DNA of 64,000 nt, from contig SDAL01000001.1 of assembly GCA_004153385.1 (NCBI GenBank), positions 1,426,001 through 1,490,000 of the forward strand. Direction: 5' to 3'. This stretch comes from Paracoccaceae bacterium (GTDB taxonomy: Bacteria > Pseudomonadota > Alphaproteobacteria > Rhodobacterales > Rhodobacteraceae). Both the position numbers and the translations under genes were made by a program. Shown one piece after another: positions 6,538 to 14,537 of this stretch (positions are counted from its first letter, which is position 1; the number at the start of each line of letters is the position of its first letter). Under the pieces are notes generated by a model. That model was not told the origin of the DNA and made no database searches. It saw only the letters and a program-made list of their open reading frames with translations.

Positions 6538-7638
6538 TCAGGCCACACCGCACAGTCGCGCCTCGACTGCGCGGGCCAGATCCTCCAGCATCGGCTCTGT
6601 TTCGGCCCAGCCCAGACATCCGTCGGTAATACTTTGACCATAGCGCAGCGCGCGCGGATCGGCCAAAGGCTGACGCCCGCCCACCAGATTGCTTTCGATC
6701 ATGAGGCCCCGCAGATCGGGCGCACCGGCGTGCAACTGTGACACCAGATCAGCCACCACATCACGCTGGCGCTGCGGGTCCTTGCCACTGTTGGCATGGC
6801 TTGCATCCACCATGATACCGCAAGGCGCACCGGCGCGGCGCGCCGCCTGCGCGGCATGCGCGATGTCGGCTGCGTGGAAGTTCGGGCCCATATGGCCCCC
6901 GCGCAAAACCAGATGGCCGTCGGGATTGCCCGCCGTGGTGCGCATCCCGATCCTGCCGCAATCGAGCACCGCAGGGATCACATGACACCCTTGCGCGGCG
7001 CCAAGCGCGTCAAGCGCGATTTGCACACCGCCATCGGTGCCGTTTTTGAAACCTACCGGCAACGGTAAACCCGACACCATCTGCCGGTGGATCTGGCTTT
7101 CGGTGGTTCGGGCACCTATTGCCCCCCATGCCACCAGATCGCTGATATAGGGGGCCAGCAGCGGATCAAGGAATTCTGTCGCAGCGGGCACGCCCATCGC
7201 GCCGATCTCAAGCAACAAACGACGCGCCACGCCCAGCCCCTCGGCCAGACGGTCGCTGCCGTCCAGCCGCGGATCGCTTAACAGGCCCTTCCACCCCACG
7301 GTCGTGCGGGGTTTTTCGAAATAGCACCGCATCACGATCTCCAGCCGGTCGCCAAACCTCTGGCGCGCGGTCGCCAGATGGTGCGCATAGGCCAGCGCCG
7401 CCTCAGGATCATGGATCGAACATGGCCCCACAATGACAAGCAACCTGTCATCACCGCCCGACATGATGGCACGCACCCTGTCACGGGCCGCGACCACGCT
7501 GGCGGTCAGCGGCCCATCGGCCATGAAATGGGCGCGCAAATCGTGTGGTGCTGGCAGTGGCTGCTCCGCACCGGAGCCTGCGGCAGGATCTGCAGCCGGA
7601 ACGGGGACCTTACACAAGGTGGATTGGGATGGTGTCAT
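6538..7638 (-). CDS. aroG: 3-deoxy-7-phosphoheptulonate synthase, class I
   Basis: Condenses phosphoenolpyruvate and erythrose 4-phosphate to DAHP, the first step of the shikimate pathway. At 366 aa it has the length of AroF/G/H-type enzymes. Visible motifs are GPCSIHD (about residues 71-77), KPRTTVGWKG, GARTTESQIHRQ, FKNGTDG and the metal-site DASHANSGK. The ATG at 7638 has an AAGAGAG upstream; a GTG in frame at 7686 lies inside the terminator tail and is unlikely. A leader peptide and attenuator precede the gene, so expression is probably tuned to aromatic amino acid supply. Which isozyme it is cannot be assigned. Confidence 0.95.
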   Translation of the reverse strand: MTPSQSTLCKVPVPAADPAAGSGAEQPLPAPHDLRAHFMADGPLTASVVAARDRVRAIMSGGDDRLLVIVGPCSIHDPEAALAYAHHLATARQRFGDRLEIVMRCYFEKPRTTVGWKGLLSDPRLDGSDRLAEGLGVARRLLLEIGAMGVPAATEFLDPLLAPYISDLVAWGAIGARTTESQIHRQMVSGLPLPVGFKNGTDGGVQIALDALGAAQGCHVIPAVLDCGRIGMRTTAGNPDGHLVLRGGHMGPNFHAADIAHAAQAARRAGAPCGIMVDASHANSGKDPQRQRDVVADLVSQLHAGAPDLRGLMIESNLVGGRQPLADPRALRYGQSITDGCLGWAETEPMLEDLARAVEARLCGVA

Positions 7639-7680
7639 CAGTCTAACTCTCTTTTGTCCAGAGATCCGACCGAAGGCATG

Positions 7681-7711
7681 AAACACAAAAGCCGCCGGTC
7701 AGACCAGCGGC
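7681..7711 (-). terminator. Attenuator terminator hairpin upstream of aroG
   Basis: On the minus strand GCCGCTGG and CCGGCGGC form an 8-bp stem (one G-U pair) around a 5-nt loop, followed by TTTTGTGTTT. It lies between the leader ORF and the aroG start, so it would end transcription before the structural gene. Its 5' arm (7704-7710) can instead pair with the 3' arm of the upstream hairpin, giving an antiterminator. Confidence 0.8.
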
Positions 7712-7738
7712 TCGGGGATCAATGCATATGTCTAGCGC

Positions 7739-7813
7739 CTAGACAGCATCCCGCTTCCGCTGAGGACAGCGGAACCAATAAAACGATGCAGTATAGGGGT
7801 TCAAATTCGACAT
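7739..7813 (-). CDS. aroG leader peptide with Phe-Tyr-Trp-Phe codons
   Basis: A 24-codon ORF whose codons 11-14 are TTT TAT TGG TTC (Phe-Tyr-Trp-Phe), the three end products of the aromatic pathway. The following perfect hairpin begins exactly at the TTC codon, and the ORF stops 28 nt before the terminator stem. This is the layout of an attenuation leader peptide. There is no Shine-Dalgarno; the ATG lies 7 nt after a -10-like TAACAT, so translation may be leaderless. It is too short for ordinary gene callers. Confidence 0.8.
   Translation of the reverse strand: MSNLNPYTASFYWFRCPQRKRDAV
7755..7774 (-). promoter_or_regulatory. Attenuator hairpin 1:2 in the aroG leader
   Basis: A perfect 8-bp stem TTCCGCTG / CAGCGGAA with a 4-nt loop. 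The 5' arm starts at the last aromatic codon of the leader. The 3' arm contains CAGCGG, complementary to CCGCTG in the terminator's 5' arm, so pairing of 2 with 3 would prevent the terminator. Confidence 0.75.
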
Positions 7814-7820
7814 AAGCCGG

Positions 7821-7849
7821 ATGTTAGCCGCGCCGGATACAAAAGTCAC
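7821..7849 (-). promoter_or_regulatory. Candidate promoter of the aroG leader transcript
   Basis: On the minus strand GTGACT (7844-7849), a 17-nt spacer and TAACAT (7821-7826), ending 7 nt before the leader ATG. Each hexamer matches the sigma-70 consensus at four of six positions. A second option is TTGCGA-17-TGTATC (7836-7864), which would give a 5' leader of about 15-20 nt. Confidence 0.4.
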
Positions 7850-7877
7850 GCCCTGATTTCGCAAGCCTCCCTGCCCC

Positions 7878-8696
7878 TTATCGCGTGCCGCGCAGCTGGC
7901 GCAGGTAATCGCGCGGACTTTGGCCCAGATGACGGCGAAACATGGTGCTGAAGGCGGCCGGACTCTCGTATCCCAGCTCTAGCGCAACGCGAGTAACGCC
8001 TTGCCCCGCAATTAAAAGTTGCAAACTACACAGCACACAGGCCCGCTGCCGCCAACGATCGAGTGACAATCCGGTCTGGGCCTGAAAATGGCGCGACAGC
8101 GTGCGACGGCTCATTCCGGCTTGCGCGGCCCAATCGTCCAGCGCCAGATGCGCCAAAGGGGCCTCCAGAAACCGTTGGCACAATGTCACAAGGCGCGGAT
8201 TACGCGGCAGGGGCAACGCCAAAGGCTCCTCTGGCAGGCGCTCGATTTCTTGCAGCAACAGCGTCTCCAGCAGCCGGTCACGCGGGTCTGCATAGCCACG
8301 TTTTTCGGCCAGTATCCCTTCGAGTATCAGCGCGCGTGCCAGATCATTGACCGCCAGCACCCGTGGCACGCTATGGCGCGAGGTCACCAAGCCCGGACGG
8401 ATATAGACCGAACGCATCTGGGCGGGTCCCAGAACATCCACACCATGCTGGCATCCCGCAGGGATCCACAGCGCGCAATCGGGCGGCAACAGCCAGTTTC
8501 CATGGGGCGTTTGCACATACATCCCACCCCTCAGCACATACAGCAACTGGTCAAGCGGATGGCTGTGAGGTGCCACATGCGCGCGGGCCTGATAGTCCCA
8601 TCCCAGCCGGATCACATCGTTTTGGGTCTGCATGACCTGCTGCATGCGCCACACCTGCGCGACAGTCACAGCATTCTGAGCTGGCAAGGTTTCCAT
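7878..8696 (-). CDS. AraC-family transcriptional regulator with cupin sensor
   Basis: A 272-residue regulator. An N-terminal cupin-like domain (about residues 20-110, with HSHPLDQLLYVLRGG) precedes a C-terminal AraC double helix-turn-helix (about 170-268, ending in the typical ALELGYESPAAFSTMFRRHLGQSPRDY). The ATG at 8696 places the cupin at the normal distance; the longer frame runs into the promoter of the divergent gene. It is divergent from an MFS exporter with 91 nt between them, so that gene is the likely target. Confidence 0.9.
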   Translation of the reverse strand: METLPAQNAVTVAQVWRMQQVMQTQNDVIRLGWDYQARAHVAPHSHPLDQLLYVLRGGMYVQTPHGNWLLPPDCALWIPAGCQHGVDVLGPAQMRSVYIRPGLVTSRHSVPRVLAVNDLARALILEGILAEKRGYADPRDRLLETLLLQEIERLPEEPLALPLPRNPRLVTLCQRFLEAPLAHLALDDWAAQAGMSRRTLSRHFQAQTGLSLDRWRQRACVLCSLQLLIAGQGVTRVALELGYESPAAFSTMFRRHLGQSPRDYLRQLRGTR

Positions 8697-8787
8697 CTTG
8701 GCCCGATCGCAAAGGTTTTTGACATACACACGAAAGATAGCCATCGCCCGATGCGATATCCAGAGTAAAACCCCAAGGAGCAGCCCC

Positions 8788-9993
8788 ATGACCGACGCCA
8801 CCGCGTCCCGCCCGCATCAAGATGGCATCAAGGCGAGCTATTTGATCCTGCTGGCAATAAGCAGCTGCCACTTACTCAATGATCTGATGCAATCCTTGCT
8901 GGCCGCGATCTATCCGATGCTGAAGACAGAGTTCGCGCTCGATTTCTGGCAGATCGGTTTGCTGACCTTCTTCTTCCAGCTCACCGCGTCGCTTTTGCAA
9001 CCGGTGGTCGGGCTGGTCACGGACCGGCGCGCCTTTCCCAAGGCGCTGCCGCTGGGCATGGCGGCGACCATGTGCGGGCTGGGGGTGCTGGCATTCGCGC
9101 CGAACTATGGCCTGCTTATCTGCGGGGCCGGTTTGATCGGCATCGGCTCGTCGATCTTCCATCCCGAAGCATCGCGGGTGGCGCGCGCGGCTTCGGGCGG
9201 GCGGTTTGGCACTGCACAATCGCTGTTTCAGGTGGGCGGAAATTTCGGAACTGCGGCGGGTCCGCTTTTGGCGGCGTTTATCGTGGTGCCGTTCGGGCGC
9301 AGCTCTGTTGGCTGGTTTGCGGGGGCGGCACTTCTGGGGATAGTGATCTTGATCGGCGTCAGCCGGTGGCATGCACAGGAACGGCTGAACGCAGCCCGAC
9401 GCAAACCCCAAGCCACGCCCAAACAATTGCCGCGCAAACAGGTTGTTATCGCCGTCTCCATCCTTCTGACACTGATCTTTTCCAAGCACGTCTATATGGC
9501 CTCTATGACCAGCTACTATACTTTTTTCCTGATCGACCGGTTCGGCCTTGATACGCCTGCGGCACAAAAGATGCTGTTTTTGTTCTTGGCGGCTGTGGCC
9601 TTTGGCACCGTGATCGGGGGGCCTGTGGGCGACAGGATCGGGCGCAGAACGGTGATATGGTGCTCTATTCTGGGGGTATTACCCTTCACGCTGATACTGC
9701 CTTACGCCGATCTGTTCTGGACAGGTGTGCTTAGCGTGGTCATCGGCGTCATCCTTGCATCGGCTTTCCCGGCGATTGTGGTGTTCGGGCAGGAGTTGAT
9801 GCCGGGGCGCGTGGGCATGGTTGCGGGGCTGTTTTTCGGCGTGGCGTTCGGGGTTGCAGGGATAGCGGCGGCCGCGCTGGGGGCGGTGGCCGACATCACA
9901 AGCATCACCCGCGTGTTCCAGATTTGCGCGTTTCTGCCGATGCTGGGCTTTCTGACGGTGTTTCTCCCCTCTCGCAGACACACGATGGGCTAG
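8788..9993 (+). CDS. MFS transporter, fosmidomycin-resistance (Fsr) type
   Basis: A 401-residue, 12-segment major facilitator protein. The N-terminal SSCHLLNDLMQSLLAAIYPML segment, the GIGSSIFHPEASRVARAASGG loop and QSLFQVGGNFGTAAGPLLAAF are hallmarks of the Fsr subfamily. AAGGAG lies 7 nt before the ATG at 8788. Fsr itself exports fosmidomycin; many family members have unknown substrates, and drug export here is inference. The divergent AraC regulator probably controls it. Confidence 0.88.
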   Translation: MTDATASRPHQDGIKASYLILLAISSCHLLNDLMQSLLAAIYPMLKTEFALDFWQIGLLTFFFQLTASLLQPVVGLVTDRRAFPKALPLGMAATMCGLGVLAFAPNYGLLICGAGLIGIGSSIFHPEASRVARAASGGRFGTAQSLFQVGGNFGTAAGPLLAAFIVVPFGRSSVGWFAGAALLGIVILIGVSRWHAQERLNAARRKPQATPKQLPRKQVVIAVSILLTLIFSKHVYMASMTSYYTFFLIDRFGLDTPAAQKMLFLFLAAVAFGTVIGGPVGDRIGRRTVIWCSILGVLPFTLILPYADLFWTGVLSVVIGVILASAFPAIVVFGQELMPGRVGMVAGLFFGVAFGVAGIAAAALGAVADITSITRVFQICAFLPMLGFLTVFLPSRRHTMG

Positions 9994-14115: not shown

Positions 14116-14124
14116 TAATCAATT

Positions 14125-14537
14125 TGCGCGGATGGCCTGTAAGCCGGGTTCTGTTCAGGGGTTCCCCCCTTCGATGACCATTCCTCTAGTCTTGCAATTG
14201 CTTGCAAGATCAAGCTGCCAACCCGGATCACTCGGGGCGAAGGTCCCCTGCCGTGCGGTTGCCCGCCAGCACGTGATCCCTATTCGGCGTTGCTCCCGGT
14301 GGGGCTTGCCATGCCGGTCCTGTTACCAGTCCCGCGGTGGGCTCTTACCCCACCGTTTCACCCTTACCCGTGCATATTGCAGGGCGGTCTGTTCTCTGTG
14401 GCGCTATCCCTGGGGTTGCCCCCGCCGGGCGTTATCCGGCACCGTTCCTTCATGGAGCCCGGACTTTCCTCGGAGCATCGGCTATCTGCATTGCGCAGAG
14501 CTACGATTACACCGCGGTCATCCGGCCATCCGCGCAA
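14125..14537 (-). ncRNA. rnpB: RNase P RNA, bacterial class A
   Basis: Catalytic RNA that trims tRNA 5' ends. The minus strand carries the diagnostic GAGGAAAGTCCGGGCTCC near the 5' end, GGTAAGGGTGAAACGGTG and AACAGAACCCGGCTTACAGG near the 3' end. The terminal segments GCGCGGATGGCC and GGCCATCCGCGC pair as helix P1, setting the ends within a few nucleotides. Length is about 413 nt. Confidence 0.95.

Follow-up and report, generated by a model that had tools for sequence, protein, structure and literature searches.

A putative transcription attenuator with Phe, Tyr and Trp codons ahead of the class I DAHP synthase gene of a Paracoccaceae bacterium, and its counterparts in relatives

The window considered here, a stretch of 64,000 nucleotides (64 kb) from a Paracoccaceae bacterium, carries on its minus strand a gene for a class I DAHP synthase of the aroFGH type, whose product scores above the cut-off for PF00793, TIGR00034 (426.4 bits, cut-off 173.2) and NF009395 (454.8 bits, cut-off 343). 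The genome of the organism holds one class I and one class II copy of DAHP synthase, and, among the matches listed (80 of at least 595 loci), the closest named relatives of the class I enzyme are those of Pseudogemmobacter and Paracoccus. Upstream of this gene, also on the minus strand, lie all of the attenuator elements that had been named in an earlier, sequence-only reading of the locus. From upstream to downstream, the features are as follows.

7878-8801, minus strand: araC-family gene, on the same strand as the leader and upstream of it, ending at 7878
7844-7849, minus strand: predicted -35 promoter element GTGACT (GTGACA being the commonest form among relatives)
7821-7826, minus strand: predicted -10 promoter element TAACAT, after a 17-nt spacer, with 7 nt from its end to the leader ATG
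7813-7739, minus strand: leader peptide ORF of 24 codons, MSNLNPYTASFYWFRCPQRKRDAV, followed by TAG
7783-7772, minus strand: regulatory codons TTT TAT TGG TTC (Phe Tyr Trp Phe), inside the leader ORF
7774-7767, minus strand: segment 1, TTCCGCTG, starting at the TTC codon
7762-7755, minus strand: segment 2, CAGCGGAA, in perfect 8-bp pairing with segment 1
7744-7730, minus strand: small hairpin GTCTAG-GCG-CTAGAC, taken from folds, spanning the leader stop codon and lying between segments 2 and 3
7713-7703, minus strand: segment 3, the 5' arm of the terminator, whose CCGCTGG (7710-7704) pairs with segment 2 too
7699-7689, minus strand: segment 4, the 3' arm of the terminator, with the T-rich tract TTTTGTGTTT running down to 7681
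7638-6538, minus strand: class I DAHP synthase gene, 366 aa

Just upstream of the leader, the AraC-family regulator gene (7878-8801) and a divergent gene for an MFS transporter (8698-9993) overlap at their 5' ends when longest ORFs are called. Elsewhere in the window, an ordinary bacterial RNase P class A RNA is found at 14124-14533 on the minus strand (296.6 bits).

The 24-codon ORF with its consecutive TTT TAT TGG TTC codons is present as it had been described, and it is the sole site of its kind on either strand of the 64 kb when a start codon, a run of at least four aromatic codons including Phe, Tyr and Trp, and a stop within 40 codons are demanded; the chance expectation, obtained from 60 Markov-simulated windows, is a mean of 0.17 such ORFs per window. 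The perfect 8-bp hairpin that begins at the TTC codon (TTCCGCTG/CAGCGGAA) was likewise recovered, its stretch folding at -16 kcal/mol with none of 200 shuffles folding as well. So was the GC-rich stem ahead of the DAHP synthase gene, an 11-bp pairing of 7713-7703 with 7699-7689 followed by TTTTGTGTTT, for which the folding energy is -19.1 kcal/mol and again 0 of 200 shuffles do as well; the T-tract behind this stem is interrupted. The remaining element of the sequence-only reading was an antiterminator made of CAGCGG (7762-7757) and CCGCTG (7710-7705). This complementarity exists, and can be extended by a final U-G pair to TCAGCGG (7763-7757) and CCGCTGG (7710-7704), but for the window alone it is not significant against shuffles of the GC-rich linker (p 0.14), so that the 2:3 helix gains weight from relatives only. 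An argument from rare codons was dropped, since neither TTT nor TAT is a rare codon in six neighbouring ORFs (33 TTT, 51 TTC, 36 TAT and 14 TAC).

With an araC-family gene on the same strand and ending at 7878, the stem might merely terminate transcription of that gene, in which case the aromatic ORF would be fortuitous. However, between that gene and the stem lie a promoter-like site and an aromatic ORF that is conserved, and in six of six Paracoccus loci the upstream gene is divergent and points away, yet the stem persists; it cannot, then, be the terminator of the upstream gene. We regard this explanation as highly improbable.

Across the family of the window and the named Paracoccaceae, an aromatic leader followed by a terminator was found at every one of the 23 loci examined, which comprise those of 14 family genomes, Pseudogemmobacter, Paracoccus sp. 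IB05, six Paracoccus plasmid loci (two of which, L098 and L099, are near-copies of each other) and the locus L249. Class I DAHP synthase is itself rare in the family, being matched in 14 of 248 genomes at E 1e-60, and leader and terminator are present in all 14. The loss of the aromatic run in close relatives, which would have spoken against an attenuator, was not seen, as the leader is kept in the 22 other family or Paracoccaceae loci with the gene; within the genus this comparison is inapplicable, because none of the 15 other genomes searched matches class I DAHP synthase at E 1e-60 (1 of 16 with that of the window). Two types of leader occur in the family, FYWF/WFYYF, to which the window's belongs, and FWYFYY; the leader of the laboratory strain Paracoccus denitrificans PD1222 (L096) is of the window's type. 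Among 289 genomes of the class, seven further class I genes were found, five with a leader plus terminator, one without this pair and one that could not be judged (L102, whose upstream region of about 200 bases lies at a contig end). The same plan recurs in Bradyrhizobium and Mesorhizobium (YFWYF, YWYF), in Devosia and Dyella, and in Stenotrophomonas (FYWYYF), Bordetella (FYFYFYGF) and Burkholderia (FYFYFFWY).

In a broader sample, a leader with a strong terminator 40-170 nt beyond the aromatic short ORF was found at 87 of 198 class I loci, but on none of 198 opposite strands and at none of 30 class II loci; 60 of the class I loci had been picked by hand for spread over families, with one family (f167) mostly skipped, so that 87 of 198 is no rate for the phylum. 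Twenty places below the cut-off (L110-L129) and one locus that repeats another (L109, repeating L001) stand outside these counts. When the terminator is ignored and only an aromatic short ORF (four of six codons) is asked for, 111 of 197 class I loci have one. The same condition is satisfied on 19 of 197 opposite strands, at 2 of 30 class II loci and, over five Markov shuffles, in 8-17 of 197. Within the tree rows of enteric, Pasteurella-like, Vibrio, Shewanella and Aeromonas type, 1 of 28 passes, namely a Buchnera locus (L061) whose leader is probably a chance match in AT-rich DNA; it is counted in the 87 and was dropped from the stall-geometry, linker-shuffle and promoter sets described below. 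In a contig from a Chloroflexota MAG (L070), a YCYYFF leader and a terminator precede class I DAHP synthase, which is possibly a case outside Pseudomonadota.

The specificity of the arrangement was further assessed with a covariance model (R1) built from 13 leaders and run over the 248 family genomes under stricter filters, with 15 scored candidates per genome. Four hits of 88-94 bits were returned, all of them before class I DAHP synthase; as these four (the window, L003, L004 and L005) all belong to the training set, the search shows a lack of further strong copies and brings no new members. The next-best hit scored 30.9 bits, and seven weaker hits (L255-L258 and L260-L262; 24.5-30.9 bits) were rejected as extra copies for want of a run of four aromatic codons; they show inverted repeats rich in GC, in most cases with a T-tract, and one falls within a coding frame. 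Searched against Rfam at gathering score, the whole window yields RNase P only, with no leader family and no P15, and the sub-threshold matches within 7600-7900 are sroD (E 0.45) and mir-21 (E 3.5).

The sequence-only reading had proposed aligning the upstream regions for conservation of the Phe-Tyr-Trp-Phe codons and for compensatory changes in the stems, and both are found. In a structural alignment of 13 FYWF-type leaders, including one from another family (L195), TTTTATTGGTTC is identical in ten; of the other three, one has TAC as its last codon, and two carry TAC where TGG would stand, a TGG coming earlier in the run. Taken together, stems 1:2 and 3:4 are paired in 94.0% of alignment cells and have three pairs changed on both sides, a combination reached by 0 of 500 shuffles. 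The changes are a U-A pair at columns 16/23 that has become C-G in three leaders, a terminator G-C that has become A-U in L005, and another terminator G-C that has become A-U in L195; further pair types in the two stems are no more numerous than in shuffles (500 of 500). Of the window's 8-bp hairpin, the outermost pair fails in five and the innermost in seven of the 13 leaders, and hence six core pairs carry its conservation. The antiterminator 2:3 is 98.9% paired with one double change (A-U to G-C in L005), and by itself its covariation does not exceed that of shuffles (140 of 500). Against linker shuffles, an antiterminator helix is significant at p 0.05 in 33 of the 87 leaders, the window's not being one of these, where 4.4 would be expected; each of the 33 is a classical leader (71 in all), and none is among the 15 leaders of the P15 type that are taken up below.

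How the alternative helices would respond to a stalled ribosome was examined by folding. A ribosome footprint reaches 15 nt past the first P-site base, and the RNA was accordingly treated as covered up to that point, the remainder being folded up to segment 3. With the A site at TTT, TAT, TGG and TTC of the window's leader, 2:3 forms with 7, 7, 7 and 5 pairs, respectively, at a probability of about 1, while with the ribosome at either of the next two codons the best fold retains one 2:3 pair, the most probable such pair reaching 0.47 and 0.69, respectively; the codons that permit antitermination thus end where the aromatic run does. The full-length RNA, when unhindered, folds as 1:2 plus 3:4. 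In silico, then, the claim that a ribosome stalled at any of the aromatic codons frees segment 2 for segment 3 is borne out. Over the 71 classical leaders, the mean sequestration of the terminator arm is 0.63 for stalls in the run, 0.56 before it, 0.19 after it and 0.48 without a ribosome. It is higher in the run than after it in all 71 and higher in the run than before it in only 38, so that stalls ahead of the run also predict antitermination in many relatives, though not in the window. The corresponding values for the window are 0.59 in the run, 0.12 before, 0.35 after and 0.51 without a ribosome, and a second rise, to 0.50-0.74, accompanies stalls at codons 16-19. When the linkers are shuffled, the mean run value over the 71 leaders is 0.43, and 64 of 71 exceed their own shuffle mean; the run value of the window itself was reached by four of six linker shuffles.

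Taken together, the conserved aromatic run, the compensation in stems 1:2 and 3:4, the position-specific terminator and the stall geometry support the attenuator reading, and we put at about 0.9 the probability that the locus is a ribosome-mediated transcription attenuator, as judged from sequence and modelling, through which class I DAHP synthase is expressed according to how well charged tRNAs for Phe, Tyr and Trp are supplied. The transcript would begin at or beside the leader ATG, with the ribosome probably loading on a leaderless mRNA. When the aromatic tRNAs are charged, the ribosome would pass the Phe-Tyr-Trp-Phe codons, and either the 1:2 hairpin or the ribosome itself would occupy segment 2, allowing the 3:4 terminator to form and transcription to end near 7681. 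When any of the aromatic codons is read slowly, the ribosome would instead cover segment 1; segments 2 and 3 would then pair while segment 4 is still to be transcribed, and RNA polymerase would continue into aroG.

Joint sensing of the three amino acids is suggested by the codons and by the modelled geometry. It is possible, if on the whole doubtful, that the attenuator is effectively tuned to one amino acid, e.g. Phe or Trp, with the other aromatic codons stalling the ribosome too little. A precedent lies in the aroR leader before aroF of Corynebacterium glutamicum, a Phe-Tyr-Phe attenuator that is reported, in a review citing Neshat et al. 2014, to respond to Phe and not to Tyr (PMC11802643); this leader is also predicted in PMC4046766. 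Moreover, within the run's first eight codons, Trp is absent from 12 of the 87 leaders and Tyr from one. Against such tuning, stalls at all four codons free the antiterminator in silico, and all three residues are held within those first eight codons by 74 of the 87 leaders. As reported, the C. glutamicum leader resembles that of the window in having consecutive aromatic residues in a leader peptide before a DAHP synthase gene and in acting by ribosome-mediated attenuation, and is set apart as an actinobacterial leader with Phe-Tyr-Phe and no Trp.

The promoter-like site of the window (7849-7821, minus strand; GTGACT-17-TAACAT-7-ATG) has a p of about 0.01 against shuffles, and its placement recurs in relatives. 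Promoter scoring took in 70 of the 71 classical and 13 of the 15 P15-type leaders, and 58 of the 70 classical ones have, at p 0.05, a -35/-10 pair ending 6-8 nt ahead of the leader ATG; among those 58, the spacing is 17 in 54 and the -35 element is GTGACA in 37. Because the promoter ends so close to the ATG, the leader mRNA is probably leaderless, starting at or beside that codon. The trp attenuator RNA of Sinorhizobium meliloti is reported likewise to have its 5' end at the trpL ATG, similar to the start at about the A of the ATG that is predicted for the window's leader, and to act in trans. By analogy with that system (rnTrpL/peTrpL), the leader could chiefly yield a trans-acting small RNA or peptide, attenuation being secondary, and the counterpart of the leader in Pseudomonas has indeed been catalogued as an sRNA, P15. 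A cis action, however, explains the codons, the stems and the linkage to the DAHP synthase gene, and a chiefly trans-acting product is considered unlikely. A search for terms pointing to the leader short RNA in the main text of a Paracoccus denitrificans sRNA paper (PMC6686037) matched none of them.

For 12 of 18 sources, the Rfam family P15 (RF00627) ahead of class I DAHP synthase lies over both the leader's aromatic end and the terminator.

L018 1193-1312, and 11 further Pseudomonas-type loci: P15, lying on the end of the leader ORF (...GYWFS...) and on its terminator

P15 thus stands where the window's leader does, before class I DAHP synthase and on an aromatic leader-ORF end with a terminator. 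The P15-type leaders differ in being long, in having a promoter that abuts the ATG in 2 of 13, and in the lack of a significant 2:3 helix in 15 of 15, which means that their switch, if any, must differ. In the stall foldings, sequestration is higher in the run than before or after it in all 15, and in the linker-shuffle test the result is not significant (9 of 15, p 0.053). From its position, P15 is likely to be the product of an attenuator, a statement that we did not find in the literature searched, although Livny 2006 may hold part of it; the aromatic leader would then offer a cis function for this catalogued Pseudomonas sRNA. Between P15 and the DAHP synthase gene, L018 also has a second short ORF rich in Tyr and Trp (MTTYRTDRYYRYDWRF..., 1361-1456), and similar ORFs occur at L072, L078, L240 and L248, all loci of Pseudomonas type.

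In a quick tree of 138 proteins, the label for presence of the leader clusters (11 changes against a shuffled mean of 48.5), with the label 'none' including misses such as Devosia L024, L032 and L033 and a few others, which have a leader but no terminator that passes the threshold. Both sides of the tree include leaders, and L061 is the only one in the enteric group. The trees suggested that the FYWF and FWYFYY leaders of the window's family arose separately, which is not claimed, since a single clade for the two is not rejected by the AU test (p 0.101). Also set aside was a mutual exclusion between leader and TrpR, which is not clean: the window's genome has no TrpR match, and the leader is present as well in the three f175 genomes that do match TrpR (L206, L209 and L210). 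The DAHP synthases of contigs labelled Mycobacterium sp. KBS0706 (L021), a Klebsiella pneumoniae MAG (L044) and a Bordetella parapertussis MAG (L039) group with other lineages in the quick tree, and these contigs are perhaps mislabelled or mis-binned. As a tentative hypothesis, to which we give somewhat less than even odds, a Phe/Tyr/Trp attenuator on a leaderless mRNA may be the ancestral and most widespread means by which Pseudomonadota control class I DAHP synthase, with isozyme repressors of the E. coli type a later replacement in the branch of enterics, Vibrio and Shewanella, and P15 a divergent form of the same switch.

The trp and pheA attenuators of enterics have the same four-segment anatomy, intrinsic terminator and leader peptide as the window's leader, and differ from it in serving one amino acid each and in controlling genes of terminal branches. 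Closer in logic is the multivalent Ile/Val/Leu leader of E. coli ilvGMEDA, in which one leader senses several end products of one pathway, though that pathway is the branched-chain one and the sequence is unrelated. Among arrangements before DAHP synthase itself, the Acholeplasma motif uORFC-13-1 before aroF is described in PMC8632094 as a uORF with at least one Phe codon followed by a terminator and the DAHP synthase gene; it shares the order of uORF, terminator and gene with the window and is set apart, by that description, by its phylum and by the Phe codon alone. For Shewanella, attenuation or termination before DAHP synthase genes has also been proposed, the aroF 5' region being listed as Tyr-only sensing and aroH as possible termination in PMC2659441; no aromatic leader with a terminator was found at the Shewanella loci sampled. 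Ribosome-mediated attenuation, multivalent leaders and, as reported for C. glutamicum aroR, an aromatic leader before DAHP synthase are already known. A proteobacterial Phe/Tyr/Trp leader before class I DAHP synthase, its leaderless layout and the link to P15 were not found in the literature searched, although Vitreschak 2004, Neshat 2014, Panina 2001 or Livny 2006 may already contain part of this; what appears to be new here, on the strength of sequence comparison, is the leaderless layout of the leader and the occurrence of Rfam P15 in the equivalent Pseudomonas position.

If the attenuator reading is true, a Phe/Tyr/Trp leader of this kind would be useful for engineering the production of aromatic compounds. 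The shikimate pathway begins with DAHP synthase, and the textbook account of how this enzyme is controlled comes from E. coli, with three isozymes and the repressors TyrR and TrpR. If true, one RNA switch responding to Phe, Tyr and Trp alike would be a different solution from that of E. coli, and one that is recurrent outside the enterics.
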